Source: a virus. From it: a stretch of DNA of 44,281 nt. Below are positions 1 through 44,281 of this stretch, in pieces. How positions within the stretch are numbered: position 1 is the stretch's first letter; every line of letters starts with the position of its first letter. The stretch spans positions 1-44,281 of the IMG/VR virus record IMGVR_UViG_3300028800_000159; one strand, written 5' to 3'. The position numbers were made by a program, and so were the translations under genes. The notes beneath the pieces were generated by a model. That model did not search any database. It was not told where the DNA came from and was given only the letters and a program-made list of their open reading frames with translations.

Positions 1-100
1 GATGACCGCCAGACAGCAGGTCGCGGCACAGCGCCTCGGCACGTCGCGCCAGCTCGTGCGCGATCTCGGATGGCTCAGGCCCTTTGCGGGCCTGGTTCAT
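1..100 (-). CDS. Primase, 5' fragment (redundant copy of 43122-44213)
   Basis: The first 33 codons of the Toprim primase, cut by the contig start. The full gene is at the right end. Compared with that copy, codon 30 changes from Pro to Ser because of the mismatch at position 13. The start codon overlaps the stop of the 95-residue gene at 97-384 (ATGA), so the two are translationally coupled. Confidence 0.85.
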   Translation of the reverse strand, partial: MNQARKGPEPSEIAHELARRAEALCRDLLSGGH

Positions 101-168
101 GCGGCTTCCTCAAAAGAGCGGCCGCTCGCCTTACTCTGGCTTTGGGGCGAGCCGGCCGCGAGTTTGGA
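1..168. repeat. Terminal direct repeat, left copy (assembly closure of a circular genome)
   Basis: Matches 44114-44281 over 168 bases with two differences: position 13 (A here, G at 44126) and position 129 (C here, A at 44242). It holds the 5' end of the primase gene (minus strand, start codon at 98-100) and the 3' end of the next gene. A repeat interrupting a coding gene at both contig ends is what a circular molecule gives when cut at an arbitrary point, so I do not read it as a packaged terminal repeat. Confidence 0.9.
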
Positions 169-3042: not shown

Positions 3043-3282
3043 TCAGGCCGCCTCTCGGGGTTCGGCGCTCACGGCCCGGAGCGCGGCCAATCGCGCCAGA
3101 TCGGAGGCGGAGGCCCCCGCGATCGCGCGCCGCTCCGCTGCCGTTTCGATCGCCGACCAGCGCTCAGGCGGGATGTTGCGCCGGTGCTTCCAGACCCGTG
3201 CCAGGCTGACGGGCACGCCGACGTCGGCGCAGAACACGTCGAGTGAGGGCCACAAGGTCATGACATCGGCAACGCAGCGCAT
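3043..3282 (-). CDS. cro: Cro-like repressor, up to 79 aa
   Basis: A small helix-turn-helix protein divergent from the CI-like gene, the standard place for Cro. The core LWPSLDVFCADVGVPVSLAR followed by VWKHRRNIPPERW matches the Cro-like proteins of alphaproteobacterial prophages, where a WPS..A.D.G motif opens the first helix. Two starts are possible: ATG 3282, which falls about where a transcript from the predicted PR promoter (-10 at 3288-3293) would begin and would make a leaderless mRNA, or ATG 3261, closer to the usual family N-terminus. Neither has a Shine-Dalgarno sequence. The gene ends two bases before the end of the oppositely oriented WYL gene. It should compete with CI for the operators nearby. 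Confidence 0.7.
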   Translation of the reverse strand: MRCVADVMTLWPSLDVFCADVGVPVSLARVWKHRRNIPPERWSAIETAAERRAIAGASASDLARLAALRAVSAEPREAA

Positions 3283-3376: not shown

Positions 3377-4063
3377 ATGCCGCCACCAGATCTGCTCCGA
3401 ACCCCCGCCCAGCGCCTGCGCTACGCCCGCGAAATGGCCGGCTATACGTCGCCGACCGCGTTCTCGGCCGCGCACGGAATCCCACAGCCCACCTATCACC
3501 AGCACGAAAGCGGGACGCGCAAACTGCGGCCCGACGTGGCGGAGAAATATGCCGAGGAGTTGGGCTGCAGCGTCGCTTGGCTGCTGACCGGCGAAGGGCC
3601 GCTTCCGATCGATCAGACGGTGGGGATTATTAGTCGCCCCTTTCGGATAGCCGAGCTCGATATTCGAGCCTCGGCAGGCGGTGGAGCACTGAACGAATTC
3701 GAGGGAAGTGAGGTCGATGCCGTCGACCATTGGCAGGTTCCGGCTGACTTCATTCGCGCGCAGACCACCGCCCCTCCTGAAAAACTTCGCGTTATTCGGG
3801 TCTACGGCGACAGCATGCAGCCGGTGTTCAACGCGGGAGATCGTGTGCTTGTCGATACTTCCGACCGCACGCCCTCTCCGCCCGGAATTTTTGTCCTCTG
3901 GGATGGCCTTGGCACGGTCGTTAAGCGTGTAGAGCATATCCCATATTCCGCACCCGCATCAGTCAAGCTGCTTTCGGCCAATCCGGCCTATGGCAGCTAC
4001 GAAAAGACGCTCGACGAGGTGCAGATTGCCGGCCGGGTGATCGCCAAGTGGCTTTGGACCTGA
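3377..4063 (+). CDS. cI: CI-like repressor, helix-turn-helix plus S24 autoprotease, 228 aa
   Basis: Maintains lysogeny by binding the palindromic operators on both sides of the gene and is inactivated by RecA-stimulated self-cleavage. Residues about 10-70 are a lambda-type helix-turn-helix (RYAREMAGYTSPTAFSAAHG, then a recognition helix near PQPTYHQHESG). The C-terminal half is an S24/LexA-type peptidase: the nucleophile Ser146 lies in YGDSMQPVF, the base Lys183 in TVVKRVEH, and a likely cleavage bond is Ala100-Gly101 in RASAGGG. The start at 3377 is the ATG that gives a normal family N-terminus; in-frame codons upstream run back through the operator region and cannot be repressor sequence. 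No Shine-Dalgarno precedes it, recalling the leaderless lambda cI message. The S24 residues are intact, so the prophage should be SOS-inducible. Confidence 0.85.
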   Translation: MPPPDLLRTPAQRLRYAREMAGYTSPTAFSAAHGIPQPTYHQHESGTRKLRPDVAEKYAEELGCSVAWLLTGEGPLPIDQTVGIISRPFRIAELDIRASAGGGALNEFEGSEVDAVDHWQVPADFIRAQTTAPPEKLRVIRVYGDSMQPVFNAGDRVLVDTSDRTPSPPGIFVLWDGLGTVVKRVEHIPYSAPASVKLLSANPAYGSYEKTLDEVQIAGRVIAKWLWT

Positions 4064-5226: not shown

Positions 5227-5424
5227 ATGCCGCAGGAAGCACCCGCGCCGCAGGCCGCGCTCGAGCTGCTGCTGCGCCTCAATGTCGTGCTGCGCGCGCC
5301 GATTTTCGCCTCGCCTGCCAGTCAGGAGCGCGAGGCGATCAATGGCCACGTGCTCGCCCTGATGGAAGTGATCGACAACGCCGGCGACCACATGGTCGCG
5401 GCGGCACGGCTGCAGGCGGCATGA
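5227..5424 (+). CDS. Hypothetical helical protein, 65 aa
   Basis: ATG 5227 preceded by GGGAGG about nine bases upstream, a strong ribosome binding site. The product looks all-helical (AALELLLRLNVVLRAPIF, then REAINGHVLALMEVIDNAGD) and could be a small dimer or a partner of the following methyltransferase. The stop overlaps the methyltransferase start (ATGA). No family recognised. Confidence 0.6.
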   Translation: MPQEAPAPQAALELLLRLNVVLRAPIFASPASQEREAINGHVLALMEVIDNAGDHMVAAARLQAA

Positions 5425-6073: not shown

Positions 6074-7822
6074 ATGGAAATCCCGCTCGACGTGCTCGAC
6101 TTCCTTCCGCCGGCGTTGCGTGTGCGCAGTGCGCCACCGTCCGACGCGGCGGTCGGCATGCTGGCCGCCAGCATGCGCGAGCGCGGCCAGTTGCAGCCGA
6201 TCGTCGTCGCGCCACTGACCGAGGGCCGCCGCCTGGTGATCATCGGCGAGACGCGCGCCCGCGCGGCGGCCTCGCTCGGCTGGAACTTCATCCGCGCCGA
6301 GGAGCAGCCGGTCGGCGGCGACGCCGATATCGTCGCCGCCCAGGCGGCCGAGAACCTGGCGCGCACCGCCATGACGCCGGTCGAGAAGTGGCGCGCCATG
6401 ACGCACCTGCTCGAGCTGCAGTTCACCCTGCCGGCGGCGGCGGCGATCGTCGGCGTGTCCGAGCGCGGCGCGCGCAAGCTGCAGCGGCTCGGCGCGCTGC
6501 ACCCCGACATCCTCGTCGCCATCGAGCGCGGTGACCAGCCCGACGAAGACGAGCTGCGCCTGATCGCCGGCGCATCGCTGGAACGCCAGGCCGAAGCGCT
6601 GGCGAACCCGGCCAGCCGCAGCGATTTCGGGCCCGACAAGGGCTGCATCGACTGGACCGAGCTCGCCGACCTGCTGCGCGTCGCGCGCATCCCGCTCAGC
6701 CGCGCCATTTTCGACGTCGAGAATAGCGGGCTGGTGTTCGAGGAAGACCTGTTCGCGCCCGCCGATGCGTCCGAGGCATACACCGACGACGTGAAGCTGT
6801 TCCTCGAGCTGCAGCGCCGCGCGCTCGAGGCCCGCGTGCTGTGCCCGCCGAAGGGCGTGCGCTACGAGATCACCACGCTCGACCGCTACGGCTACCCGAA
6901 AACCCCAGCCGGCGCCGAGCAGGAATACGACGCCGACCCGATGGCGCCAAAGCGCGGCCGCCTGGTGCTGTGGTCGCTCTACGAGGGCGACGACCAGGAG
7001 CGCGCCGGCGAAGTAGTCGGCCGCGTCTTCAAGGTTCCGGCGGCGAAGGGCAAGGCGGCGGAGGCAAAAGCACCACCGACGGGGAAGCCGGGCAAGCCGG
7101 CGCCGACCGGCGCACCGGAGCCGATCGACGATGCCGAGACCGATGCGGAGGACAGCGTGGCGGAGCCGGAGGACGCCGAGGCAGACGCGCCGGAGCCCGC
7201 CCCGGCGACGGAACCCACGGGCATCACCAAGCCCGGCCTGGAAATAATCGCGCAGGCCAAGACGACCGCGCTGCGCAGGCAGCTAGGCCAGATGGCCGCG
7301 CATTCGCTGACCGATCGGCAGGTGATCATCTGTTTGTTGCTGTTGCTGACCGCGCCGAACGTGAGGATCCACGGCTTCGACGCACCCGAAAACACCGACC
7401 AGCCATGGAACAGCGCGCGCGATTATCTGCGTGGCGTGCGCGCCCGCCTGGTCAACGCCGGCGGCGCCGCGCTGGCGCACGGCCTCGACGACGCCGACCT
7501 GCGGGCCCTCGCCGGCGACGTGCTGGCGCGCTGCCTGTCGGCGGCCGGCCCGCGCGATCGCGACCGTGGCGGCGGCGAGACCAGCGCCGAAGTGGCGGAA
7601 TGGATCGGCCACGCGCTGCGCGCCGACGACCGGCTGCCGCCCTTCGACACCGCCGAATTCCTAGCCTGCTGCAACGGCGACCTGCTTCGCGAGGCCGCCG
7701 CGATCGCCGGGCTCAAGCCGGCGAAGAAGGTGACAGCCCTGCGCGAGCAGCTCGAGGGCCACGCCCCGACCTGGTTGCCAGCCGCCGCCCAGTTCGGCGC
7801 GCCGGGGCCGCGGGGGACCTAG
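6074..7822 (+). CDS. ParB-like N-terminal domain protein, 582 aa
   Basis: Residues about 20-85 match the ParB/Srx fold: GQLQPIVVAPL, then the box RLVIIGETRARAAASLGW and ENLARTAMTPVEKWRAM, followed by a helix-turn-helix-like segment (LPAAAAIVGVSERGARKLQR). ParB proteins bind and spread on DNA using CTP; phage members often lack a ParA partner, as here. The middle (about 345-405) is an acidic Glu/Asp/Pro/Ala linker and the C-terminal 190 residues are a separate helical region of unknown type (ITKPGLEIIAQAKTTALRRQ). At 582 residues it is about twice a chromosomal ParB. It starts two bases after the methyltransferase gene. It may act in gene regulation or DNA modification targeting rather than partition. 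Confidence 0.75.
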   Translation: MEIPLDVLDFLPPALRVRSAPPSDAAVGMLAASMRERGQLQPIVVAPLTEGRRLVIIGETRARAAASLGWNFIRAEEQPVGGDADIVAAQAAENLARTAMTPVEKWRAMTHLLELQFTLPAAAAIVGVSERGARKLQRLGALHPDILVAIERGDQPDEDELRLIAGASLERQAEALANPASRSDFGPDKGCIDWTELADLLRVARIPLSRAIFDVENSGLVFEEDLFAPADASEAYTDDVKLFLELQRRALEARVLCPPKGVRYEITTLDRYGYPKTPAGAEQEYDADPMAPKRGRLVLWSLYEGDDQERAGEVVGRVFKVPAAKGKAAEAKAPPTGKPGKPAPTGAPEPIDDAETDAEDSVAEPEDAEADAPEPAPATEPTGITKPGLEIIAQAKTTALRRQLGQMAAHSLTDRQVIICLLLLLTAPNVRIHGFDAPENTDQPWNSARDYLRGVRARLVNAGGAALAHGLDDADLRALAGDVLARCLSAAGPRDRDRGGGETSAEVAEWIGHALRADDRLPPFDTAEFLACCNGDLLREAAAIAGLKPAKKVTALREQLEGHAPTWLPAAAQFGAPGPRGT

Positions 7823-9047: not shown

Positions 9048-10286
9048 ATGGGGCGCCTCAGCGACGCAAAGATCCGGCAGACCAAGGTTGCCGGCAAGCC
9101 ACAGAAGCTGTCGGATGGCAGCGGGCTGTATCTCTTGATCACCCCGGCCGGCGCGAAATCGTGGAGGTTCCGCTTCGCCCGGGGAGGCCGAGAGCAAGTC
9201 ATCACGCTGGGCCACTACCCCGATGTCGGGCTAGCCGAGTCCCGCCGGCGACGGGACACGGCACTTGCCGCGGTTCGGGAAGGGCAGGATCCGACAGCCG
9301 CCCTTCGCCCTCCGGAGGTCGCCCCGGCACGCACCCTCGAGGACGAGGCCCGCGCCTGGCACGAAGCTCACCGCCGCATGTGGGCACCACACCACGCCAG
9401 CGACGTGCTGGAGTCGCTCGCGCGCGAAGTGTTCCCGGTGATCGGCGCCGTCGCCATCGAGGCGGTCACCGCGCCACAGATCCTGGCCGTGCTGCGACCC
9501 GTCGAGGCGCGCGGCGCGGTCGAGCTCGCCCATCGACTTCGGCAGCGGCTGTCCGCGGTCCTGGACTATGCCGTCGCCCTCGGCCACGCGCCGGCGAACC
9601 CAGCAGCGAGCCTACGGCGGGCGCTGGCGCCAGTGGTGCGCACCGGCAGGCGACCGGCCGTGGCGACGCTGGAAGACGCCAGGGCGGTGCTGCAGGCCGC
9701 CGAGGCGGTGCCGGCACACCCGGTCACCCGGCTAGCTCTGCGGCTGCTGGCGCTCACCGCGGTGCGGCCAGGCGAGCTGCGCGGAGCACGATGGGAGGAG
9801 TTTGCCGGTCTGGACGGCCCCGAGCCGGTCTGGACGATCCCGGCCGACCGGATGAAGGGCACCGTGGAGCGACGGGCCGATACGCCCGACCATGTCGTGC
9901 CGCTGGCGCCGGCGGCCGTGGAGGCCCTGCAGGCCGTGCGATCGTTGACCGGCCGCGGGCCCCTGCCTTTTCCATCGTGGCGCCGCGCGCACCAGCCGCT
10001 CTCCGAGAACGCGATCGGCTACCTGATGCACCGTGCCGGATTCCAGGGACGGCAAACCGCCCATGGATGGCGCGCGACTTTCTCGACGGTGATGAACGAT
10101 CTCCATCCTGGCGACCAGGCGGTGATCGACCTCATGCTGGCGCACGTGCCTGCTGGCGCAGTGGAACGTGCCTACAATCGGGCCCTGCACCTGGCGCGCC
10201 GGCGCGAGATTGCTGAGGAATGGGCCGGGATGCTGATGGAGGGGATGCCGCCGGCGGCCGAGTTGCTCAGGCTGCCGCGGAAATAA
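9048..10286 (+). CDS. int: Tyrosine recombinase integrase, P4 type, 412 aa
   Basis: Integrates and excises the prophage at an attachment site. The N-terminal DUF4102-like domain (SDAKIRQTKVAGKPQKLSDG followed by GLYLLITPAGAKSWRFRF) binds arm sites; a core-binding helical domain follows at about 95-195; the catalytic domain carries Arg240 (TAVRPGELRGARW), the box H339-G-W-R342, His366 (LMLAHVP) and the nucleophile Tyr376 (ERAYNRAL). All catalytic positions are present and length is normal for the family. Start at ATG 9048, six bases after GGAGG; a longer frame from 8934 would run through the hairpin and repeat. Such integrases usually target the 3' end of a tRNA gene, but the host site is not in the window. 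Confidence 0.9.
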   Translation: MGRLSDAKIRQTKVAGKPQKLSDGSGLYLLITPAGAKSWRFRFARGGREQVITLGHYPDVGLAESRRRRDTALAAVREGQDPTAALRPPEVAPARTLEDEARAWHEAHRRMWAPHHASDVLESLAREVFPVIGAVAIEAVTAPQILAVLRPVEARGAVELAHRLRQRLSAVLDYAVALGHAPANPAASLRRALAPVVRTGRRPAVATLEDARAVLQAAEAVPAHPVTRLALRLLALTAVRPGELRGARWEEFAGLDGPEPVWTIPADRMKGTVERRADTPDHVVPLAPAAVEALQAVRSLTGRGPLPFPSWRRAHQPLSENAIGYLMHRAGFQGRQTAHGWRATFSTVMNDLHPGDQAVIDLMLAHVPAGAVERAYNRALHLARRREIAEEWAGMLMEGMPPAAELLRLPRK

Positions 10287-10327: not shown

Positions 10328-10348
10328 CTAGGGCAAGGCTTTCCCTAG
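10328..10348. terminator. Convergent hairpin between int and the methyltransferase gene
   Basis: CTAGGG (10328-10333) and CCCTAG (10343-10348) are perfect six-base arms with extra partial pairing inside (CAAGG/CTTT). It sits exactly where the rightward int and leftward methyltransferase transcripts meet and may stop both. No long U-run, so the call is tentative. Confidence 0.35.
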
Positions 10349-11085
10349 GCAGTTATTCGCACACATACCTGTTGATGCTTAGGGACAAAACCCAGGTACT
10401 CGAAATGCCTTCCGCTTGCTGAAATATATTCCCTAAAAGCGCGGAATTCATGCTGGCGCCAGCCAGGATAATTAAAATATTCATCGAATACAATTACCGT
10501 TCCTGGGACTATCCTAGAGGAGCAGTTATCTAAAATCACCTTTGTAGAGCTATACAAATCACAATCAATATGCAGAAATGAGATAATACCAGGATGCGTT
10601 TCGATGAATGCAGGCAGCGTATCTCCAAACAATCCGGTAATTAACTGAACATTATCATCAACATCCGGCATTTTTTGGGCGAAGCTCCCAGCAGAGAAAC
10701 CAGGGCGCCACGTTTCCGGAAGACCACCAAACCAATCGAAGCCGTAAACTTTATCAGGAACAATTAATTTTGCTATGTGGTTGATAGTCCTACCGCTGGC
10801 CACACCAAATTCAAGGGAAAGCCCGTCGAGACTTCGCCAAGAATTCGCAAGATCCAGTAATTTAAAATCATCCTCAGCTAGTTTGCATGCCATTAAATTC
10901 CTCTCGTAAAATCTCGCTGAATCCACTGCCGCCATAAAATCCGCCATAGACAACACATTATAGGACTCATTGAATTTCGAGAACAGACGAGACCACTCCG
11001 GCGCACCGGACTCTCGCCGAAAACGCCAGTAGCGTTCCATCACCTGATTTGGGACCAGTTTACGAACGACTCTGCGGATATTCAT
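10345..11085 (-). CDS. SAM-dependent methyltransferase (TylF/Methyltransf_24-like), AT-rich moron, 246 aa
   Basis: A class I methyltransferase: SAM-binding motif LEFGVASGRTINHIA (about residues 84-98), VYGFDWFGGLPE as motif II and HIDCDLYSSTKVILDN with PGTVIVFDEYFNYPG as later motifs. This pattern is typical of TylF/MycF-like O-methyltransferases and relatives found in glycan loci. It should methylate a small acceptor, plausibly a surface sugar of the lysogen (lysogenic conversion), but the substrate is not shown. The gene is clearly AT-richer than its neighbours: by my count 27 of 60 bases at 10381-10440 are G or C. That marks a late acquisition. Start at ATG 11085; an upstream GTG in frame would add 21 residues. 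Confidence 0.75.
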   Translation of the reverse strand: MNIRRVVRKLVPNQVMERYWRFRRESGAPEWSRLFSKFNESYNVLSMADFMAAVDSARFYERNLMACKLAEDDFKLLDLANSWRSLDGLSLEFGVASGRTINHIAKLIVPDKVYGFDWFGGLPETWRPGFSAGSFAQKMPDVDDNVQLITGLFGDTLPAFIETHPGIISFLHIDCDLYSSTKVILDNCSSRIVPGTVIVFDEYFNYPGWRQHEFRAFREYISASGRHFEYLGFVPKHQQVCVRITA

Positions 11086-11178
11086 TGGAAAACTGCCGTC
11101 TCTCCGAACAGGGACGGAACGATACCAGCCTAAGCCATCCAGCGCCACCGCCAGAGCAGGGTCGTCTCGGAAGGGCGG

Positions 11179-12344: not shown

Positions 12345-12376
12345 AAAGCCGGCCGAGGCTTCCCCCGGCCGGCTTT
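12345..12376 (-). terminator. Intrinsic terminator of the late operon
   Basis: AAAGCCGGCCG (12345-12355) pairs perfectly with CGGCCGGCTTT (12366-12376) across a ten-base loop. On the minus strand the stem is followed by TTTTTGC, a proper U-tract, so it ends the leftward late operon after the GH5-like gene. On the plus strand the tail is only TTTCG, so it would also weakly end the 12075-12317 transcript. Confidence 0.75.
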
Positions 12377-30919: not shown

Positions 30920-31016
30920 TGCGGTTCTCCGAAAGGAAGAGAGCGCTTTCGGCAGCGCAAGGGGGCGCTGCCTGTCGCTTGCCTCGCCGCGCCGGCCCAG
31001 GGCCGGCGCGTCTGGT

Positions 31017-33780: not shown

Positions 33781-34653
33781 TTAGCCCAGTTGGGCAATGA
33801 GTTCGACGAACGCAGCGTCAGGCGCCGCCACTTCATCGGCGAAGCCGATCGACACGCCGGCCGGGCCCTGGAAACAGCCGGCCTCGGTAGCCTTCACGGC
33901 CTTCGGCGTCAGGCCGCGGTTCCGTGCCACCGTGGCGACGAACAGGTCGCCGGTGGCATTCACGTCGGCCTGGAACTTCGCGCGGGCCTCGTTGCTCAGC
34001 GGCGCGATGTCGGCGCCATCGGCCTTGTGGGCGCCATAGGTGATCAGCGTGACGGCGATGCCGGCAGCGGTCAGCGCCTTCGAAAGGTCGCAGTGCATCA
34101 TGATCACGCCGACGCTGCCGACGCCGCCGGTGCGTGGCACGGTGATGTGCGTGCAGGCCGAGGCGATGGCATAGGCCGCCGAATAGGCGCCTTCATCGAG
34201 GATGGCCCAGATCGGCTTTTCGCCGGTCTCGCGCGCCGCATAGATCGCGTCGGCCAGGTCGAAGCAGCCGCTGACCTCACCACCGGGACTGTCGATATCG
34301 AGCACGATCGCGCGCACCGCAGGATCGTCCCAGGCCATCGCGAACAGCGCCTTGATGCCGTCGTATCCGGTCATGCCCGAATACGGATGCAGCGAGCCAA
34401 GGCGGTGCACCAAGGTGCCCTCGACCGGGATCACTGCCACGCCACTGAGGACGCCGTACGGCTTGTAGTCCGCCGGTTCGCCGGGCTCATCGACCGGCCC
34501 CAGGCTGACCTCGGCGCCGTCGGCATGGAACAGCCGCCCGACGCCGAAGCGATCGGCGAGGGCGGCCATGATAACTTCGGCCTTGTCGGGAAGGATCGCC
34601 AGCGGCCGGTTGAACAGCCGTTGCGCCAGCATCGGCAGGCGATGTGCGGTCAT
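33781..34653 (-). CDS. Head maturation protease, S49 family (lambda gpC-like), 290 aa
   Basis: The SppA-like Ser/Lys dyad is visible: nucleophile Ser158 in DEGAYSAAYAIAS and general base Lys210 in TYGAHKADGAD. The region GVAVIPVEGTLVHRLGS and VLDIDSPGGEVSGCFDLAD is the conserved S49 core. Shorter than lambda gpC (439) because the scaffold portion is a separate gene. ATG 34653 overlaps the portal stop. Confidence 0.85.
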   Translation of the reverse strand: MTAHRLPMLAQRLFNRPLAILPDKAEVIMAALADRFGVGRLFHADGAEVSLGPVDEPGEPADYKPYGVLSGVAVIPVEGTLVHRLGSLHPYSGMTGYDGIKALFAMAWDDPAVRAIVLDIDSPGGEVSGCFDLADAIYAARETGEKPIWAILDEGAYSAAYAIASACTHITVPRTGGVGSVGVIMMHCDLSKALTAAGIAVTLITYGAHKADGADIAPLSNEARAKFQADVNATGDLFVATVARNRGLTPKAVKATEAGCFQGPAGVSIGFADEVAAPDAAFVELIAQLG

Positions 34654-36314
34654 GTCGGCTGCGGCCTTTCGGGCTTCGCGGAAACGTCGCTGGCGGTGGT
34701 GCCTTCCTGGTCGTTGCCGATCTCCTGGCCAAACCAGGTCGGCTGGGGTAGGTCGAGCGCCTTGAAGCGATCGCGCTCGATGGCGCGCTGGTAGACGTTG
34801 TCTTCCCAGTCCATGCCCTGTTCGGCGCATTCCTGCTCGAGCGTGCTCAGCCCGGCATCCATGCGCAGCACCGCGGCCTGGGCCTCCTTGACGGGATCGA
34901 TCCAGCCGCGCGGCGGGCCCATCCACATGCAGGCCGCATACTCAGCGCGGGCCTCGGCGAAGTCCGGCGCGCCGGCTGGCATCGGCAGCTCGCCGCGGTC
35001 CATCGCCTCTTCCAGGAAGGCGCCGTAGACCGGCGAAGCGAAGCCGGTGCCGAAGTCGATGCGGCGACGGTTCAGGGTTTTCCAGGCTTCCAGCAGCGCG
35101 GCCCGGGCGGACGAATAGTTCACATGCGACCAGTCCTGGCTCAACTGTTCCGCCGTCATGCCGGTGGCCGCCGCCAGGTTGCGGATGGCGGCGAGCTCGA
35201 ACACGCCGTAGCTGGTCGATGGGCGCTTGCTGTCGACGGCGTGGATCTTTTCGCCGGGCCGCAGCACGGGCAGCACGCCGTCCATGACACGCAGGCGGCT
35301 GTCGTGCATCGGCGCCGGACCGTCATCCTTGTCCGACTGCTCGGTGCTGCCCAGCGCGTCCTGCAGGGCGTTGATGTCGGCGTCGCTCTCGACATAGGCA
35401 GCGAACACGCTGTTGACGATCGCGGCCTGCAGCTCGGCCTGGTCGAACTGGGACAGCATCTTCATGCGGCCGAGGATCGGCGCGAAGATGCCGCCGGCGG
35501 CGCGGTGCTGGGCGGGACGGTCGCTGTCGTAGTCGTGGATGATGACCGGCCGGCCCCAGTCCGTCTCGCGCTCGATGCGGTCCCAGATCACGGAGGCGGC
35601 GGCGTTGAACCAGTCGCCCTGATGCGCGCGGCGGATGTGATAGGCGACGGCCGCACCATAGTCGTCGATTTCGACGCCGGCGCGGCGATGGATGGTGTCG
35701 ATGCCGAGCTGCGGGTTGCTCAGCCGGTCGGTGTCGATGAGCTGCAGCGCGGTTGAATATTTCGCGCGGCCGTAGCCCATGCGTTCGGGCAGCCAGAGCA
35801 GGATGGCGAGCGATTCGCCGTCCACCAGCTTCTGGCGGAAGGCGAGGCGGAACAACTGCGGGATGGTGTAGCGGCGGCCGCCGTCGCACCAGCGTGCCGG
35901 GTCGGTCGACCAGGACCGCCAGAGGGCCTCGGCGGTGCGGCCGAATTCGTCGGCCCAGGTGCGGTCTAGGGTCTTCGATTGCAGGCGCAGAGCCCGCCAG
36001 TCCGGCTTGGCGACCGCCCGAAAATCGGCGCCGACGACACTGTCGAGGATGCGCGTGACAGTGCCGGCGGCCCAGCCGTCGTTGCGCACCAGGTCGCGGA
36101 CACGGGAGACGATGACGTCGCGGGCGAAATTGATCTCGACGTCGGGCGAGGCAAGGTAGGCGTTCCAGTCGCGCGTTTCCGGCCCGCTGTAGCCGCCGGC
36201 ATCGTAGGCGGTGGCGCCCTCGCCCCGGATCATGCCGATCCGCCGGCGCTGCGGGGTGCTGGCGGGCTTTGGCGCGATGGTGAGCGGATTGCCCAGGGTG
36301 TCGATCAAGGTCAT
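34650..36314 (-). CDS. Portal protein (lambda gpB-like), 554 aa
   Basis: Lambda-type portal: VSRVRDLVRNDGWAAGTVTR, the RSWSTDPARWCDGGRRYTIP segment, AVAYHIRRAHQGDWFNAAAS and AAATGMTAEQLSQDWSHVNY are diagnostic of the family. Twelve copies form the head vertex through which DNA is packaged. ATG 36314 overlaps the gpW stop. Length is normal (533 in lambda). Confidence 0.9.
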   Translation of the reverse strand: MTLIDTLGNPLTIAPKPASTPQRRRIGMIRGEGATAYDAGGYSGPETRDWNAYLASPDVEINFARDVIVSRVRDLVRNDGWAAGTVTRILDSVVGADFRAVAKPDWRALRLQSKTLDRTWADEFGRTAEALWRSWSTDPARWCDGGRRYTIPQLFRLAFRQKLVDGESLAILLWLPERMGYGRAKYSTALQLIDTDRLSNPQLGIDTIHRRAGVEIDDYGAAVAYHIRRAHQGDWFNAAASVIWDRIERETDWGRPVIIHDYDSDRPAQHRAAGGIFAPILGRMKMLSQFDQAELQAAIVNSVFAAYVESDADINALQDALGSTEQSDKDDGPAPMHDSRLRVMDGVLPVLRPGEKIHAVDSKRPSTSYGVFELAAIRNLAAATGMTAEQLSQDWSHVNYSSARAALLEAWKTLNRRRIDFGTGFASPVYGAFLEEAMDRGELPMPAGAPDFAEARAEYAACMWMGPPRGWIDPVKEAQAAVLRMDAGLSTLEQECAEQGMDWEDNVYQRAIERDRFKALDLPQPTWFGQEIGNDQEGTTASDVSAKPERPQPT

Positions 36315-36562
36315 CCGAGGCGGATCCCGATGGCGCGGCGGGCGCGATAGCCGAGCTGGGTCTGCAGGCTTTCGATGTAGCTCCGCAGCGAGCCGAGCTG
36401 CCCCTGGTTGTAGGTGACGCTGCGGCTGCCGGCTCCTTCCGCGTACGTCACGGTGGTCACCTGCGAGCCGCGCACCAGGTCGTGCAGCGCTTTCTGGGCG
36501 GCAGCGAGGTTCGCCTGCAACGTGGCCTGCGGCAGAAGCGGAGGAGGCGGACGGCGGATCAT
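36311..36562 (-). CDS. Head-tail joining protein gpW-like, 83 aa
   Basis: Sits between terminase and portal, exactly where lambda W is. ATG 36562 overlaps the terminase stop. The pattern of one helix (LAAAQKALHDLVRGSQ), a short beta-hairpin (TTVTYAEGAGSRSVTYNQG) and a second helix (LRSYIESLQTQLGYRARR) is the gpW fold; lambda gpW is 68 residues. Confidence 0.8.
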   Translation of the reverse strand: MIRRPPPPLLPQATLQANLAAAQKALHDLVRGSQVTTVTYAEGAGSRSVTYNQGQLGSLRSYIESLQTQLGYRARRAIGIRLG

Positions 36563-38703
36563 GCGAGCCTCCTTCCTGCCCGGACGAAACCGGGATTGAA
36601 TGGCTGCGAACGAACAACAGGTGCGAAAACCGGGCCCTGAACCGCGGGAGTGGCCGCCGGCGCAGGCAGTGTGGGTACCTGCGCCGGCGCGACGGTCACG
36701 CGCTGGCTGGGTGCATCCGGGTTCGAAACCATCGAATTCTGGTCCCACGGCGCCGCCCAGGACGGTGGGCGCGCCCAGTTGAGGCGGGCGAGGCCGTGCA
36801 GGTGGGCGACGACATGCGTGCCGACCATCAGGTCGGTCGGCTCGTTGCGGTGCTGGCTGGTGTGCTTCCAGGTGCGGTTGGGCTGGCGGGTTTCGGCCAC
36901 CAGGCCCTCGAAGAAGATGTGCGGCTCGGCGTCGCTGCGCAGAGCGGCGGGAATGTGCACCGCGAAGGCGCCTTGCGCGGTGGCGAGCTGGCTGGCCAGC
37001 GCATCCTTGAACGTGTTGGCGTTGAACTGCGCGATCGGAACGGTGCCGCCGGCGGCCGCGTGGCGGTCGTGGCGCTGGGTGTCGGGCCGCACGGTGACCA
37101 GCGGCGGCGCGTTCGGTCCGCCGAGGCCCTTGGTCGGGATGACGTTCCAGGCCTCGCGGCCGTCGATGCGGGCGCGCAGTCCGAGCTTGCCCCGGGCCCG
37201 CCAACGTCGCCACGCCGCGTAGGCGTGCAGGGTCGTGCCCGGCGCGCCGTAAGCGTCGAAGCCGGCGCCGCGGATGTGCATGACGCGGCCGGTGCCGTCG
37301 GACAGCGGGAACGCGGCGGTGACCAGGTGGCCGACCAGCTTGTCCCAGTCGGCGGCACTGGTGGTGGGCTCTGCGGCGATGGTTTCGGTGGCGATCACCC
37401 AGGACTCGGAGCCCTCACCCCAGCCCCGGAAGAGAAGTTCGAAGCGGTTGCCTTGCACGTCGACGAAACAGGTGATGAAGCGAACGCCATCCGGCACGAT
37501 GCCGAGCTTCAAGGCGGGTTCGGCGCGGTTGGCGATGTTCTCGGCGGTGAGCTGGTCGACCGCGCGCTTCGGTTCGTAGGCGAGGCCCCAGCGCTTGACG
37601 ATGACGGTCTTCAGGTTCTCGTCGTTGCCGCTCTGGGTGGCGTTGCGTTCCGCCTCGACCCGGGCGCGAGCGAGTTCGCCGATACCGCCGACCACCAGGG
37701 TGGACATGACGCCGACGATCCAGAAGCCGGCGAGCGGGCGCGCGACGGGATCTCCGGTGATGGTGCCGTCTTCGTCGATGGCCTGGCCTAGCGCGATCCA
37801 CACGCCGGCGGCGTTCATGGTGCGGCGAGCGCTGTCCTCGATCAGCGTGCCGCAGCTCGGGCAGAGCAGGCGCGCGGCGTCGCGGATTTCGTCGAGCGGC
37901 GCGTCGGAGGGATATTCGAGCGCCATGACGCGAACACCGAGCGGATGGGGAGAGCTCCATGCGTTGCAGTGTGGGCACGGCCAGTACCACAGGCGGCGAT
38001 CGCTGGCGGCGTATCCGCGCATGATGCCGGTGGTCCATTTGCTGTCGGCCATGCCGCCGGCACGGTCGGGATGGCTCAGGCGCAGCATCTTGCTGGAATC
38101 GCCGTAGGTGGACCGGCGCAGGTCGAGGATGCCGGCGACGTCGCCAAGGTTGCTGGCGTAGGCGTCTTCCTCATCGAGCACCAGGCGCGGGGCGCGCTTG
38201 CTGATGAGGTTGTTCGGCGCGGCCGGCAGGAATTGCACGGTCATGCTGCGGAAGCGCTTGAAGCCGAGGCTGTCATCGACCGGGCGGAGGCCAAGGCGCG
38301 CCTTCAACGTGGTTTCGTGGAGGTCGATCATCGGGTTGATCGCTTCCTTCACGTAACTTTCGAGCGCCGGCTCGGATTGCATGAACCACAGCATCGGAGC
38401 CGGGTCGATGTCGACGCTGTGGCCCAGCCAATTTTCGGCGCAGGCAGTCTTGGCACACTGGGCGGGGCCGACCATGACGACGGAACGGAATCGCGGATCG
38501 GTCAGCGCCTCCATGGGCGCCACGACGTAGGGGGCTTCGGCATGCTGCCAGCGGCCGACGTAACCACCGCCGGTATTGTTGAGCCAGCGCTTGGCGGCGG
38601 CCCATTCGGCAACGGTCATGCTGGCCGGCGGCGCGAAGGCCTGCAGCGCGTCGAAAACCAGCTCGCCGGCGTCGGCAAACGGGGCGTCAGACGGCAAGGG
38701 CAT
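36559..38703 (-). CDS. Terminase large subunit (lambda gpA-like), 714 aa
   Basis: Packages DNA and cuts the concatemer. ATPase motifs: Walker A-like GPAQCAKT (79-86) and Walker B LVLDEED (174-180); the MTVAEWAAAKRWLNNTGGGY start and SKMLRLSHPDRAGGMADSKW region are typical of the gpA family. The nuclease half (about 360-560) is present. A long Pro/Ala C-terminal tail (after about 660) is likely the portal-binding end. Start is ambiguous between ATG 38703 and 38715. It overlaps the small subunit stop by 17 bases. Confidence 0.88.
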   Translation of the reverse strand: MPLPSDAPFADAGELVFDALQAFAPPASMTVAEWAAAKRWLNNTGGGYVGRWQHAEAPYVVAPMEALTDPRFRSVVMVGPAQCAKTACAENWLGHSVDIDPAPMLWFMQSEPALESYVKEAINPMIDLHETTLKARLGLRPVDDSLGFKRFRSMTVQFLPAAPNNLISKRAPRLVLDEEDAYASNLGDVAGILDLRRSTYGDSSKMLRLSHPDRAGGMADSKWTTGIMRGYAASDRRLWYWPCPHCNAWSSPHPLGVRVMALEYPSDAPLDEIRDAARLLCPSCGTLIEDSARRTMNAAGVWIALGQAIDEDGTITGDPVARPLAGFWIVGVMSTLVVGGIGELARARVEAERNATQSGNDENLKTVIVKRWGLAYEPKRAVDQLTAENIANRAEPALKLGIVPDGVRFITCFVDVQGNRFELLFRGWGEGSESWVIATETIAAEPTTSAADWDKLVGHLVTAAFPLSDGTGRVMHIRGAGFDAYGAPGTTLHAYAAWRRWRARGKLGLRARIDGREAWNVIPTKGLGGPNAPPLVTVRPDTQRHDRHAAAGGTVPIAQFNANTFKDALASQLATAQGAFAVHIPAALRSDAEPHIFFEGLVAETRQPNRTWKHTSQHRNEPTDLMVGTHVVAHLHGLARLNWARPPSWAAPWDQNSMVSNPDAPSQRVTVAPAQVPTLPAPAATPAVQGPVFAPVVRSQPFNPGFVRAGRRLA

Positions 38704-39268
38704 GGTCCGTGGCATCGTCTTCGGTGTCCATGACGCGTGGCGGCTGGCGAAGGAACTCGGCGGCATCGCGGACGAATTGCTGCTGCAGCTCGGCCAGGCG
38801 GCGTTCGCGTTCGGTGCGGATGGCGGCTGGCCATCCGTCTTCGCGCGCCAACTGGCCGAGGAAGCCCCGCATGCCGCGACCGATGTCGCCGAACACCTTG
38901 GTCAGCAACTCGCTGACCTCGACCGTGGAGACGAGAGAGCGGGCTCGTTGCGCCTGGGCTAGGCGGAGGTCGTTGAGTTTCAGAGCCTTGATCTGATCGT
39001 CGAGAGACGGCTGCGGAGAGGACGGTTTGGCGGGCTCGGGACCAAACGGGAGGAGGAGCTGGGCGAGCTGCTCATCGCGCTCGGCCCGGCGATCGGCATC
39101 CTCCTGCTGGCGGGCGCGGAGGAAGGTGCAGACGTCGCGCGGGTCGAACTTGTAGGAGCGGCCGTTGGTGCCGCGCTCGCGCACCGGAAATTCTGGCCAA
39201 CGGTCAAGCCAGGCGGTCAACGTCGGCAGCGACGTTTTGAGGAAGTTGGCCAGCTCGCGCTTCGTCAT
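38687..39268 (-). CDS. Terminase small subunit (Nu1-like), 193 aa
   Basis: Recognises the packaging site. The N-terminal winged-helix DNA-binding part (MTKRELANFLKTSLPTLTAW) with a wing (VRERGTNGRSYKFDP), then a long helical region (ALKLNDLRLAQAQRARSLVS) that would dimerise, matching the Nu1/DUF1441-type layout. Start taken at ATG 39268; the longer frame adds 15 residues from non-ATG starts. Confidence 0.75.
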   Translation of the reverse strand: MTKRELANFLKTSLPTLTAWLDRWPEFPVRERGTNGRSYKFDPRDVCTFLRARQQEDADRRAERDEQLAQLLLPFGPEPAKPSSPQPSLDDQIKALKLNDLRLAQAQRARSLVSTVEVSELLTKVFGDIGRGMRGFLGQLAREDGWPAAIRTERERRLAELQQQFVRDAAEFLRQPPRVMDTEDDATDHALAV

Positions 39269-39401
39269 CAGCGGCGCGGCTGCAACCTCAGACGACAACA
39301 CCAACGACAACACAAACCTCTGTTCTAATTACACAAAATCCGCGCTCAACCGAGGTGCAAAATGCCCGTGGTTGGGTGGGGGGCTGGGAAGGACCCGCTG
39401 G
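39269..39401. other. Intergenic region before terminase small subunit, candidate cos site
   Basis: 133 bases without a gene, AT-richer than its surroundings, directly upstream of the small terminase gene. In lambda-type phages the cos site lies exactly here. On the minus strand it contains TGTTGTCGT twice at a spacing of 12 bases and an AT-rich TTTTGTGTAATTAGAA tract that might bend DNA or act as a promoter. The nick position cannot be seen. Confidence 0.35.
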
Positions 39402-40094
39402 CTAGCGGGCGGTTGCGATGGCCTCGGCCAGGCGGCGGCGGAAGGCGGCGGGCCACTCGGCACGGGCGACCTGCGCGACGCGGTCGCGGTAGTGCATGCG
39501 CGGCGTGTAGTGCGTGGTGGTCTCGAAGAGCGTGAGGCGAGTGAGGCCGTGGCCTTCACGACGCTGGAAGAAGCCGCCGATCTGCGCCTTGTTGCCGGGG
39601 GCGTTGGCCGGGAGATAGGCCACCGATTGCGAACTGGAAACAGCAGCGGCTGCCTTCTTGCTCCGCCTGGATGGCTTGGCCTGGCGGCCCAACGTCTTCA
39701 ACGTGCCGCGTGGGATATTGCCGAACTGGTCGAGCAGCAGGCCACGGCCCGGCAGCACCAGGGCGGTCGCTTGCTTGCGGGTGTTCTCAGCCGGCTCGCG
39801 CGTGCCTCCGATTTCCTCGTGCAGCAGATATTTCTGCTGGATCGGACGCACGGTGACGGTGGCGACCAGATGCTCGCGACTGGCGGCGAGAGCGCGCGGG
39901 GCGATGACGGCACGCGACGTGAACGGCGTTGGGCGGTCGAAGATTTCGCCCATGTGGGCGTTGATCGAATTGCCGGAGGACCGAGCGATGTCGTTCAAGG
40001 CACGCGCCGCCGCAAACGGTATCTGGCGACTGGCAACGACCTGCAGGGCGCGTTCCATGCGGCTGAAGTCGGTGCGGAGCGACAACTCGATCAT
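39402..40094 (-). CDS. Minor tail protein Z-like/tail completion protein, 230 aa
   Basis: The N-terminus (RALQVVASRQIPFAAARALN followed by DIARSSGNSI) matches the usual 'A.A.AIN..A' pattern of lambda gpZ-type tail completion proteins, and the C-terminal Arg-rich helices fit. It is placed before the terminase, away from the tail module, which is unusual. ATG 40094 overlaps the NusG-like stop by four bases, so the two are made together. Moderate certainty. Confidence 0.55.
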   Translation of the reverse strand: MIELSLRTDFSRMERALQVVASRQIPFAAARALNDIARSSGNSINAHMGEIFDRPTPFTSRAVIAPRALAASREHLVATVTVRPIQQKYLLHEEIGGTREPAENTRKQATALVLPGRGLLLDQFGNIPRGTLKTLGRQAKPSRRSKKAAAAVSSSQSVAYLPANAPGNKAQIGGFFQRREGHGLTRLTLFETTTHYTPRMHYRDRVAQVARAEWPAAFRRRLAEAIATAR

Positions 40095-40741
40095 GCGATG
40101 CGGATATCCGCCAGGGGTAGGGTGGTTTCGGTTTCGCGGCCGAAGATCGAGAGCAGCACGGTGACGCGACAGGGGGCCGGCATGGAGCGGACGCGGCCGA
40201 TCCAGGATGCGAACGGACCGTCCATGATCTCGACGACGACGCCTTCGGTCAGGGTTTTACGGGTGACCGCGCGCGGCGCCAGTTGGAGCGGGTCGGCGAG
40301 CAACTGCTGCATGATCGGCGTCGGCATCGTGATCGGAACCAGATCGGGCCGGCGCAGGATGTTGGCGATGCCTGGGGTGTCACGCAGGCTGCCCCATGGA
40401 TCGCGTTCGGCGTCGAACTGGATGAACAGGTAGCCCGGGAACAGCGGCTCGGTGACCTGGCTGTCGCGCGTGGCGCGAACCAACAGGCTGGGCTGGAAGG
40501 TCGGCCAGACCGGGATGTCTCGCGGAGGGTGGGCGATGCAGCGTAGGGCGCGGTGCAGGCCGCCAGGCTTCAGTGTTGCAAGGTGCCAATGATCGGGGGC
40601 TGTACCGGCTTCCGCACCGAGGGTGGTTGAACCACCCCGGCGCGTGTCGATGACGCCAGTGCCTATGCAATCACAATCGCGTCGGTCAAGCAGTTTTTCC
40701 TTGCATGTGCCGGTCTCACACCTGCTCACGGCTTGGCTCAC
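40091..40741 (-). CDS. NusG/RfaH-like transcription antiterminator, 216 aa
   Basis: Full NusG layout: an NGN domain (about 50-153; HWHLATLKPGGLHRALRCIA, LFPGYLFIQFD and SLRDTPGIANIL) followed by a KOW domain (about 166-216; LTEGVVVEIMDGPFASWIGR and VTVLLSIFGRETETTLPLAD). NusG proteins bind RNA polymerase behind the moving fork and modify pausing and termination; phage and RfaH-like paralogues act on specific operons. As first gene of the late operon it probably promotes read-through of the structural genes. Start is GTG 40741 with AAGGGA upstream; the first 45 residues, cysteine-rich (C8, C13, C23, C25), have no NusG counterpart and are odd. Confidence 0.8.
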   Translation of the reverse strand: MSQAVSRCETGTCKEKLLDRRDCDCIGTGVIDTRRGGSTTLGAEAGTAPDHWHLATLKPGGLHRALRCIAHPPRDIPVWPTFQPSLLVRATRDSQVTEPLFPGYLFIQFDAERDPWGSLRDTPGIANILRRPDLVPITMPTPIMQQLLADPLQLAPRAVTRKTLTEGVVVEIMDGPFASWIGRVRSMPAPCRVTVLLSIFGRETETTLPLADIRIA

Positions 40742-40936
40742 GGCTTAATCCCTTCATTCTACAGTCATATCTATCTAGCTGTGAGATGTGAGAGGTGTGA
40801 GAGAGGGGCGCTATATGAACGAAATCGCCTTAACGAGGGAATTCGGCGAAATCGTCTCACACCTCTCACACCCCTGCATTTCCGCGGCTTTGCGGTCTCA
40901 CGGCTTGTCTCACGGCTTTCTCACGGCTCACGGCTT
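40711..40936. repeat. Repeat array between helicase and NusG-like gene (candidate origin/leader)
   Basis: CTCACGGCTT occurs at 40725, 40737, 40897, 40909 and 40927, with a near copy at 40920, mostly at 11-12 base spacing. A related CTCACACC unit is at 40715, 40856 and 40864, and the reverse form TGTGAG is at about 40780-40802. TGTGAGAGGTGTGAGA (40787-40802) is a perfect 16-base inverted repeat of 40855-40870. Iterons of this kind next to a helicase gene suggest a replication origin. Confidence 0.6.
40756..40785 (-). promoter_or_regulatory. Candidate late promoter upstream of the NusG-like gene
   Basis: On the minus strand, -35 CTCACA (40785-40780) and -10 TAGAAT (40761-40756) are 18 bases apart; the -35 lies in the repeat array. 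AAGGGA follows and precedes GTG 40741 by about eight bases. The hexamers are moderate matches to sigma70. Confidence 0.4.
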
Positions 40937-42853
40937 TTCGGGCGGGCGCCATTCGGGATCCCAGGCCTCGCGAGGCAGCCAGATGGCCGTGCTGGGCGGC
41001 ATGCCGGGCTGAATTCGCACCCCGCCCGGCGAGACGATGGCGCCCGGTAATCGCTTCAGTTCCTGCACCCATCTGCCTTCCTGCAAACCGCGCTGGCCAC
41101 CGAACAGCGTGTGCAGCCATCGATGCGTGCGGCTCAGCCACAGGCCATCGCCAGGAGAGCCCCGGGGCGCGGGGCGCTTGCTGTATTTGTCGGGCGCCTC
41201 GTCCTTGGAGATCACCCGGATGCCGACACGCTCCAGGTAGTGGCCCGCAGCGCCACGATCCTCGATCCAGGTCGGATCGCTGTCGTGCTCAGGACGGCCC
41301 CAGGCGCGGTCTACGAGCGCGCCGATGGTCTCGACATCGGTGCTGCGGTCTTTCTGCACCAGTGACGAGGCCAGGAACTGCACGGCGCGCCGCGGGCCGC
41401 TGTCGGCCTCGACCTCATCGACGCGGCGCACATAGGCATCGAGGGCGACCACGCCATCGAGCGACTGGCGGTCGGTCGGCACGTCATCCTCGGTCAACAT
41501 CCACCAGCCCGCCAGCAACGCTCCGAACTGATCCATTTCGCGGGCGAGGCACCCGGTGCGGCCGAGCGCGGCACGGAACGCTTGCAGCGCTGCCTGATAG
41601 CGCGGCCAGGACGTCAGCACCCGCAGCCAGATCGACGGCGCCGCCGCGGCGGCCCGCGCGATCGCCGCCTCCATCGGCGCGCGATGATCGACGCCCGCCT
41701 CCGGAGTGCGCAATTCGACGATAGTGAAGCGCGCCTGGTGCTGCGGCTGCAGGTCCGGCGCGTTGATCGCCGCCATGGCCACCGAGGTCACCACGTCGAT
41801 GCGCCGCGCCTTGCCGTCGGCGGTGCCGCGCAACCCGCTGGTGCCGGCGCCGCTCGAGGCCGACAGCACGACGTCGATGAGGTTCTGCGCGGCCCGGCCG
41901 TCGCCGCGATCGGCGGACTCATCGAGCACCGCCGGCATCGAGGTGTTGTTGAGCGCACTTTCGATGCCGGCTTTGGTGGTGTCGGTGGAATAGACGTGCA
42001 TCGGGCAGCATGCGGAGAGCAGCTCGGCGAGCTTGCTCTTGCCGCTGCCGGCGCCGCCGGTAAGGAAGATGTTCGGCCGCCAGTTAGTGGCCGCGCCATA
42101 CAGCGCCGTGCCGAGCCAGCCCAAGGCCACGAATTCGCCGCCCGGGCGATCCAGCGTCCACAGCTCGCGAATATCGTCCTGCAGGCGGCGCCCGACTTCG
42201 GCTCCGGCGATCGCCGCATGCTCGATCGACAGCGGCTCGCCGTTCGGGGCCCGGGCACAGGGCGGTGCGTGGTGATCGACGGTCGCGGCCCAGATGGTGC
42301 CAGTGTCCTGGTCGCGGAATCCGGCACGGCGCCACGCGCCGCCGATCAGCACATAATCACCGACATGCACGACCGGTGCGCCGTCGCGGCCGCGCCAGAT
42401 GCCGGGCCTGCGGATCGGGCGGCTCGGGTCGTAGCCGCCGGCGTGGAAGCAGAGCTTCATCAGGTGTTCGCCGGCGGGCGCAGGGCGATAGTCGACGGTG
42501 ATGTCCTCGGAAACTTCGTTGCCGTTGCCGTCGGCGCTCTTGCGCTGGATCTTTTTCGGGAAATGCAGCTTCAGCCAGCCGATGTCGCCGCCGAACAACC
42601 CGGAGATGCCGCCGCGGCTGACCAGCTCGCGCGCATTCAGCACCCGGCGGAAGCCGGCCGGATTGAGAAAGTAGAAGGCGCCGTCTTCATCGTGGCCGAG
42701 CGGCAGCACCGGCGGATCGTCGTCGGGCGAGCGGCTCTTGTTGCCGCCCCTACCGCCGCCTTTCGACGCCCCGGCCGCGCCGCCATCGATCACCTGCAGG
42801 CCCTTCACTTCACGCGCGCCAACGATGCCCTCACGCACACGATCTTTGCTCAT
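40928..42853 (-). CDS. Replication helicase, P-loop NTPase (P4 alpha/DUF927-like), 641 aa
   Basis: Walker A GGAGSGKSK at 266-274 and Walker B PAVLDESAD at 307-315 within a helicase core (SKLAELLSACCPMHVYSTDT; AMAAINAPDLQPQHQARFTI). The N-terminal 200 residues and the C-terminal winged-helix-like region (RTHRWLHTLFGGQ; QEGRWVQELKRLPGAIVSPG) resemble P4-type alpha proteins, in which helicase and origin-binding parts are joined. The primase is separate here. Start ATG 42853 is coupled to the gene upstream; the iteron array begins at its stop. Confidence 0.75.
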   Translation of the reverse strand: MSKDRVREGIVGAREVKGLQVIDGGAAGASKGGGRGGNKSRSPDDDPPVLPLGHDEDGAFYFLNPAGFRRVLNARELVSRGGISGLFGGDIGWLKLHFPKKIQRKSADGNGNEVSEDITVDYRPAPAGEHLMKLCFHAGGYDPSRPIRRPGIWRGRDGAPVVHVGDYVLIGGAWRRAGFRDQDTGTIWAATVDHHAPPCARAPNGEPLSIEHAAIAGAEVGRRLQDDIRELWTLDRPGGEFVALGWLGTALYGAATNWRPNIFLTGGAGSGKSKLAELLSACCPMHVYSTDTTKAGIESALNNTSMPAVLDESADRGDGRAAQNLIDVVLSASSGAGTSGLRGTADGKARRIDVVTSVAMAAINAPDLQPQHQARFTIVELRTPEAGVDHRAPMEAAIARAAAAAPSIWLRVLTSWPRYQAALQAFRAALGRTGCLAREMDQFGALLAGWWMLTEDDVPTDRQSLDGVVALDAYVRRVDEVEADSGPRRAVQFLASSLVQKDRSTDVETIGALVDRAWGRPEHDSDPTWIEDRGAAGHYLERVGIRVISKDEAPDKYSKRPAPRGSPGDGLWLSRTHRWLHTLFGGQRGLQEGRWVQELKRLPGAIVSPGGVRIQPGMPPSTAIWLPREAWDPEWRPPEKP

Positions 42854-43125
42854 TTCGACAGATATCCCGTGCCGAGAGGTCGTTTCGTGTCAGGCGCCGG
42901 ATGGCAGGTTGCGCAGCACCAGGCATCGCCCGATCGCCACCAGTCGCGGCCGGAGCAAGATCCGCAGATGGCGCTTGGCCCGGGCTTACCGCCGATCGCC
43001 GGCCAACTCGGCGGCAACCGCGTGGAACCGGCAATGAAGGCGGGCCATTCGCCGCCCCGCGCCCCTTCGGTCGGGGCTGCCTCGTTCTTTGCACGAATAG
43101 CGCGGGCGGTGGCGCTCCTGGTCAT
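42850..43125 (-). CDS. Zinc-ribbon-like protein, 91 aa
   Basis: ATG 43125 overlaps the primase stop. The C-terminal half has ICGSCSGRDWWRSGDAWCCA followed by TCHP, giving two CxxC pairs, a likely zinc-binding ribbon. Such small proteins occur between primase and helicase genes and may bridge them at the origin. Residues 1-45 are basic and Ala/Gly rich. Role inferred from position. Confidence 0.65.
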   Translation of the reverse strand: MTRSATARAIRAKNEAAPTEGARGGEWPAFIAGSTRLPPSWPAIGGKPGPSAICGSCSGRDWWRSGDAWCCATCHPAPDTKRPLGTGYLSK

Positions 43126-44213
43126 CCCTCGACGCCTTGCAGGATGTCGTTCCAGTCCGCACCGGGCACGCGCGGCATCGCCCATTTCACCGTGCGGCCC
43201 TCGCCCATGTAGCGTTCGATGGCGGCCCGGCGGGCAGCGCGTTGCTTGCGGTAATCGTCCCATGCGCGTGCTGCCGGAGGCATATCGGGGGGCGGTGGGG
43301 GATCATTGTCGAAGGCCAGCAGCACCGTGGTCACCGCAGGCGGCAGGGCGAGCGCGCGCAGGCCGCCAAGCGACACGGCGGACACCACGCGGAACTCCGG
43401 GCACGCGATCGCCACCGACAGCGCCGTCTCGATGCCCTCGGCGATGGCGATGGTGTCGCCGATCGGCGCCTCGCGCAGCGGCTTGCCGGAGGCGCCGCGC
43501 CACAACGGAATGAAACCGTCGCCGATGCGGCCGAGCACTTTCTTCGGCACATCGAGCGGCGCCTTGATCCAGCGATCGCCGGCGCGCGCCAACCAGGTGC
43601 GATGCGTGGCCACGTGCACGCCGGCGGAGCTGTTCACCGCTGCGACCATGGCGTCCCACTTGCGACCGCTCTCGACGTTCCAGAGTGCCGGGTGGTAACG
43701 CAGAGCGCGCGGCTGGCGGCCGAGCTCGGCCAGGTCGATGCCGCGCCCCTGCAGATAGGCCGCGACCGGCGTGCCGGCGAGCTTCGGCTGGGCGTTCAGC
43801 CACATCGCCTGCGCGGCGCGGCGCTTCTGCTCATCCTGCTCGGCGGCCGCGGCGGGATCGTCCGGCGGAGCGGCCGGGCGGGTCGGCGTGGGCTGCTTCC
43901 GATCGCTCCAGCCGAGCCAGGACAGCGCCCAGTCGATAGCGTTGCCGATGTCTCCGGCATAGCGGCAGCGGGCGACCAGGTCGAGGGCGTCGCCGCCGTC
44001 CACGCGGCCATTATGGTCGACCCACACGCCGGCGCGCTCGCCATGCAGCTCGACAGCCAGGGAGCCGCCTGCCTCGCCGGCGATCGACCCGGCGCGCCAC
44101 TGGCGGCCGTCGCGATGACCGCCAGGCAGCAGGTCGCGGCACAGCGCCTCGGCACGTCGCGCCAGCTCGTGCGCGATCTCGGATGGCTCAGGCCCTTTGC
44201 GGGCCTGGTTCAT
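43122..44213 (-). CDS. Toprim primase-like protein, 363 aa
   Basis: Makes RNA primers for phage replication. The Toprim motifs are IAIAEGIETAL (Glu259) and VLLAFDND (Asp302, Asp304); the region before (KAPLDVPKKVLGRIGDGFIP) matches DnaG-like phage primases. The N-terminus has no intact CHC2 zinc finger. Start ATG 44213. It contains the circular junction and overlaps its upstream neighbour by four bases. An amino-acid polymorphism at codon 30 (Pro/Ser) appears between the two copies. Confidence 0.85.
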   Translation of the reverse strand: MNQARKGPEPSEIAHELARRAEALCRDLLPGGHRDGRQWRAGSIAGEAGGSLAVELHGERAGVWVDHNGRVDGGDALDLVARCRYAGDIGNAIDWALSWLGWSDRKQPTPTRPAAPPDDPAAAAEQDEQKRRAAQAMWLNAQPKLAGTPVAAYLQGRGIDLAELGRQPRALRYHPALWNVESGRKWDAMVAAVNSSAGVHVATHRTWLARAGDRWIKAPLDVPKKVLGRIGDGFIPLWRGASGKPLREAPIGDTIAIAEGIETALSVAIACPEFRVVSAVSLGGLRALALPPAVTTVLLAFDNDPPPPPDMPPAARAWDDYRKQRAARRAAIERYMGEGRTVKWAMPRVPGADWNDILQGVEG

Positions 44214-44281
44214 GCGGCTTCCTCAAAAGAGCGGCCGCTCGACTTACTCTGGCTTTGGGGCGAGCCGGCCGCGAGTTTGGA
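44114..44281. repeat. Terminal direct repeat, right copy
   Basis: Second copy of 1-168, two mismatches (44126, 44242). It holds the first 33 codons of the primase gene and the last 24 codons of the 95-residue gene (minus strand, 44210 onward), which is complete at 97-384. Confidence 0.9.

Follow-up and report, generated by a model that had tools for sequence, protein, structure and literature searches.

The virus record IMGVR_UViG_3300028800_000159, analyzed here along its whole length of 44,281 nucleotides (the window), is the complete genome of a temperate, contractile-tailed phage. In this work, we show that this genome carries a gene of the NusG/RfaH type (40091..40741, minus strand; 216 aa, GTG start) that directly follows the replication block, with a co-directional late unit of about 28 kb downstream. 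Taking together its sequence, its predicted structure and the analogy with known operon-adjacent paralogues, we consider it fairly likely that the product is a specialized phage NusG paralogue acting as antiterminator or processivity factor of the late operon.

A NusG-like Protein with Two Differently Related Domains

This open reading frame was the only one in the whole record to match the NusG family. The match to Pfam PF02357 (NusG) reached 34.9 bits (E 2e-8; cut-off 22.2), and that to PHROG 6386, "transcription antiterminator," had an E of 3e-14. No homology to Q families was found in Pfam or PHROGs, where the only matches were to NusG and phrog_6386. A sequence search of the PDB aligned residues 51–208 with full-length RfaH (E 7e-8) and also returned NusG, at a best E of 1e-9. 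The AlphaFold model has an NGN domain at about residues 51–150 (40292..40591, minus strand) and a beta-barrel KOW domain at about 165–215 (40097..40249, minus strand; strands at 169–215), mostly with pLDDT of 85–96. The top Foldseek match of the model was RfaH bound to RNA polymerase (RNAP; E 6e-10), and the KOW domain also matched structures of the NusG C-terminal domain. The NGN and KOW domains named in the original prediction, which had proposed structure prediction against NusG and RfaH as a check, were therefore borne out by Pfam, PHROGs, the PDB sequence search, AlphaFold and Foldseek, and by sequence and model the protein is a member of the NusG/Spt5 family whose fold is beyond doubt.

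The two domains differ in their affinities. The NGN domain is 29% identical to that of RfaH versus 15% to that of NusG, while the KOW domain is 38% identical to that of Escherichia coli NusG versus 20% to that of RfaH. RfaH of E. coli and Salmonella, the best structural match, shares with our protein the motif EPLFPxYLF and the equivalents of K10, a DNA-contact residue, and E48, one of the residues of autoinhibition. Of the other autoinhibition residues, I93 is replaced by M and F130 aligns with V. Unlike in RfaH, the gate-loop HTT is not conserved, the position of R73 (DNA contact) holds a P, and the KOW domain, according to the AlphaFold prediction only, is a NusG-like beta-barrel instead of the alpha-helical autoinhibited form. 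The Rho-contact loop of NusG, I164-F165-G166, is also present, whereas RfaH lost it early (PMC7593976). Because an RfaH-like NGN domain is combined here with a NusG-like KOW domain that keeps this loop, we favor a late-operon processivity factor that may still communicate with Rho and S10; with the loop in place, a simple insulation from Rho is not assured.

The same KOW identity and conserved loop would also suit a global decoy, which would draw RNAP and, through I-F-G, Rho away from host NusG, so that Rho polarity is lifted everywhere or phage transcription is favored over that of the host, with no dedicated operon. We regard this as unlikely, since the gene lies co-directionally just upstream of the terminase genes in every locus where the large terminase subunit (TerL) was found and the record need not wrap around (see below), which points to a link in cis with late genes and not to a takeover gene acting freely early on.

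Single-protein scans of viral contigs and genomes returned no close homologue, only RfaH and NusG paralogues at about 30% identity; relatives were recovered with a NusG profile. In a phylogenetic tree with long branches the placement of the protein was not resolved.

The first 50 residues (40592..40741, minus strand) form an N-terminal extension that the original prediction had described as an extra cysteine-rich N-terminus. It exists as open reading frame, but its pLDDT of about 40–58 indicates disorder, its GC3 of 0.60 (against 0.83 in the remainder of the gene) is a poor coding signal, and part of it is encoded by iteron-like repeats, a GGTGTGAGA copy giving rise to its first cysteine, C8 (in the context RCE). 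A zinc domain is thus improbable, and the extension is unlikely to be a functional domain. The gene has no in-frame ATG, GTG or TTG closer to the NGN domain, so that the extension may still be translated.

Position between Replication and Late Genes

The ends of the record overlap by about 168 bases (1..168 with 44114–44281; 115 exact, few mismatches). This terminal repeat is inexact, yet it closes the genome into a circle of about 44.1 kb, and it is this closure that places the NusG-like gene between the early/replication genes and the late genes. A CI-like repressor (3377..4063, plus strand; phrog_4, E 2e-40) lies divergent from a small gene (3043..3282, minus strand) without PHROG match, assigned as Cro-like by position only, which starts the leftward early unit and is preceded by a leftward promoter-like site (3317–3288). 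This unit crosses the record junction into a Toprim primase (43122..44213; DUF7146 and Toprim_3 in Pfam) and a replication helicase/primase-like protein (40928..42853; phrog_21086), both on the minus strand directly upstream of the NusG-like gene.

Downstream, on the same strand, a phrog_1924 minor tail protein (39402..40094) overlaps the stop of the NusG-like gene by ATGA, followed by the small terminase subunit, TerS (38687..39268; phrog_141/57), a GpA-type TerL (36559..38766; PF05876/PF20454), a portal protein of the lambda family (34650..36314; Pfam) and, from 34653 down to 12575, genes for protease, major capsid, sheath, tape measure, baseplate, endolysin and fiber-like proteins. The head, tail and lysis genes expected of the leftward 28-kb unit are thus present. 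At its end stands a strong intrinsic terminator (12347..12374, minus strand), with a hairpin of −25 kcal/mol followed by TTTTT. It had been proposed, at 12345–12376, as the first strong one of the unit, which has to be qualified by internal hairpins near 30940 (−22 kcal/mol) and 17371 (−24 kcal/mol). Their U-tracts are weaker, and they are possible readthrough points.

Elsewhere in the genome, the plus strand carries the integrase (9048–10286) and, in the rightward early region, an MT-A70 methyltransferase (5421–6071) and a ParB-like protein of 582 aa (6074–7822). Past the late terminator, a sugar/macrocin-type O-methyltransferase (10345–11148, minus strand; TylF, Methyltransf_24) may be a lysogenic-conversion gene.

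The gene stands right behind the replication block, but the primase and the helicase upstream run in the same direction. The late unit is for this reason not sharply set apart from the genes before it, and a late transcript of its own, as originally predicted, is only a possibility. All genes from 3282 across the junction to 12.5 kb are in fact co-directional, an arrangement that would also be expected of an N-like antiterminator modifying polymerases that start at the early leftward promoter, with the early leftward transcript running through replication and late genes and no late promoter. Promoter scans are in line with this reading: they gave weak sites only, in numbers not above chance expectation, and the leftward ones reported precede either the Cro-like gene or the NusG-like gene. 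The site before the NusG-like gene, which is sigma70-like (CTCACA-18-TAGAAT; 40756..40785, minus strand), is the sole leftward site in 38600–44281 and a weak candidate for a late promoter. Nevertheless, the NusG-like gene is the last of the early block, as is Q, whereas N is the first of its operon, and in several loci the NusG-like gene comes right after a replication gene or overlaps it, ahead of TerS. An N-like role therefore seems to us rather improbable. The position itself, that of lambda Q with replication genes on one side and late genes on the other, is well supported by the circularization of the genome, the content of the late unit and the recurrence of the same slot in unrelated phages.

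Recurrence of the Arrangement in Other Phages

A scan with the NusG profile, blind to neighboring genes, yielded NGN(-KOW) proteins in 27 phage loci, several of which are closely related, so that independent groups number roughly a dozen. HMM searches detected TerL in 20 of the records, always on the strand of the NusG-like gene, and in 18 it lies 0.6–5.4 kb downstream; the remaining two agree with this pattern provided that their records are circular. These TerL proteins belong to four Pfam families (GpA, TerL_ATPase, Terminase_6N and Terminase_3). Replication genes stand just upstream in several representative loci; as an exception, the NusG-like gene of locus L186 is near DNA-polymerase genes. 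Several "phage" records (L110, L111 and L112) have nusG beside genes of the secE/rplK/rplA type, that is, a host housekeeping nusG, and matches of this kind probably stem from bacterial contamination or misbinning.

The same layout is found in isolated phages, namely MinM1, phiLM21 (gp34), phi3LM21, phi2LM21, PPF1 and Nostoc JY10, and some of their proteins are already annotated as antitermination NusG. NusG-like genes close to terminase genes, for which the original prediction had proposed a search, are in this way found in other phages, and the view of the paralogue as a solution peculiar to one phage is wrong. In Synechococcus phage MinM1 the order of CHC2/Toprim primase, helicase, GTGTGAG array, NusG-like gene, TerS and TerL is that of the window, although its NusG-like protein (UXQ89129, "hypothetical protein") is only about 21% identical to ours, with a divergent KOW domain, and the phrog_1924 gene is missing between the NusG-like gene and TerS. 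The Sinorhizobium phages (phi2LM21, phi3LM21 and phiLM21), Rhizobium PPF1 and Nostoc JY10 likewise have a protein of the NGN/KOW type between replication genes and terminase. In phi2LM21 and phi3LM21 the order is replication initiator, NusG, phrog_1924-type gene, TerS or an unnamed gene, TerL and portal, with the phrog_1924-type gene next after the NusG-like gene as in the window. The proteins of these phages, known from annotation alone, are not detectably close to ours by BLAST, and the window phage differs in its helicase with an iteron array and in its contractile tail.

No NusG was found in 50 records of TerL relatives, and 33 phage loci with a TerL about 50% identical to that of the window lack it, which indicates that the NusG-like gene is replaceable. 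The absence from close TerL relatives, like the failure to find a close homologue, is what one would expect of a neutral passenger, a host rfaH- or nusG-like gene acquired horizontally and with no role in late expression. We find this very hard to credit, given that the same slot has been filled repeatedly in many unrelated phages, that both domains are intact and that the gene is coupled by ATGA to the next one.

In several of the NusG-free TerL relatives, a conserved protein of about 240 aa with the motif LFRTPQ.AL.FAFNYSMQ is encoded upstream of the phrog_1924 gene (L003 4502–5281, L005 4203–4955, L022 3436–4164, and similar). It has no Pfam or PHROG match and is a candidate late regulator.

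A Repeat Array Upstream of the Gene

The gap between the helicase and the NusG-like gene holds an array of repeats with a GTGAG core (GCCGTGAG and GGTGTGAGA, in both orientations; 40714..40934). The six near-copies of GGTGTGAGA in the genome all lie at 40714–40872. Since lineage-specific arrays of a similar kind precede many phage nusG genes, the array might be thought of as a loading element forming one recruitment system with NusG. However, the nine nearest relatives of the helicase (viral contigs L119–L127) have 11–12 copies of repeats of the same kind (GGTGTGA, GTGTGAA or CTCACAC; at most 3–4 copies in shuffled sequences) right 3′ of the helicase and no NusG match, and the array is absent from the six annotated NusG-like phages with other replication genes that we examined. 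Moreover, the repeats occur in both orientations, whereas the ops element is strand-specific. On the helicase control and the array-free NusG phages we rejected the array as a NusG loading site, a role that we hold to be highly improbable. Its retention after the helicase in NusG-free phages points instead to an origin-type element, and the array probably represents origin iterons tied to the helicase/primase. Such iterons recall primase-helicase systems of the P4 type. Matches of the 16-mer TGTGAGAGGTGTGAGA in other viruses were mostly due to chance.

After the array of L119–L127, the slot of NusG often holds an unrelated protein of about 265 aa (e.g., L120 8866–9663) with no Pfam or PHROG match. 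Its C-terminus looks HTH-like by eye, making it a candidate alternative late regulator.

A strong hairpin in the 5′ region of the NusG-like gene (40613..40644, minus strand; perfect palindrome at 40621–40637) is a possible loading signal, although one that lacks comparative support.

A Proposed Role of the NusG Paralogue in Late Transcription

Lambda Q, unrelated in protein, shares the slot of the gene described here and loads at its promoter DNA. NGN domains bind elongating RNAP and suppress pausing, and paralogues adjacent to operons are dedicated antiterminators (PMC7593976, PMC7819879, PMC12691694). LoaP, TaA and UpxY adjoin the long operons under their control (PMC7819879), and LoaP uses an RNA hairpin (PMC12691694). 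As in the LoaP/UpxY/TaA/ActX class, a specialized NusG stands here beside a long operon and in the same direction (the 28-kb late unit of the window, and a downstream, same-strand TerL in 18 of 18 non-wrapping relatives), but the targets of that class are biosynthesis or pilus operons, whereas the window gene adjoins a phage late operon. RfaH, on the other hand, is encoded at a stand-alone locus, while the window gene lies in cis, inside the operon.

By analogy, the NusG-like protein would be produced both from the distal end of the leftward early/replication transcript and as the first product of the late unit. Through its NGN domain it would clamp onto the host RNAP leaving the nusG/terminase region, taking the place of host NusG, and would keep the enzyme processive over about 28 kb, across internal hairpins and Rho sites. 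The KOW barrel would meanwhile contact S10 and the ribosome, and perhaps Rho. We further suggest, tentatively and with the chances slightly against it, that NusG paralogues are widespread late antiterminators repeatedly recruited to the Q slot of many unrelated temperate phages, some of which, as here, keep the Rho loop and control Rho instead of merely excluding it.

Both the arrangement and the antitermination annotation were already public for isolated phages, and a recurrent class of Q-slot NusG proteins is an interesting extension of them; a literature search on phage NusG in late control returned no functional, experimental or comparative work. To our knowledge, late-gene control is understood in detail for few phages, and the recurrence of the slot suggests a readily testable way of switching on virus-assembly genes. 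If this holds outside the lambda-like models, one could predict from sequence how many environmental temperate phages transcribe their late genes, the logic of RfaH and LoaP, in which a dedicated elongation factor serves a long silenced operon, would extend to viruses, and proteins such as this one would offer natural hybrids of RfaH-like and NusG-like domains for dissecting the coupling to Rho and to the ribosome.
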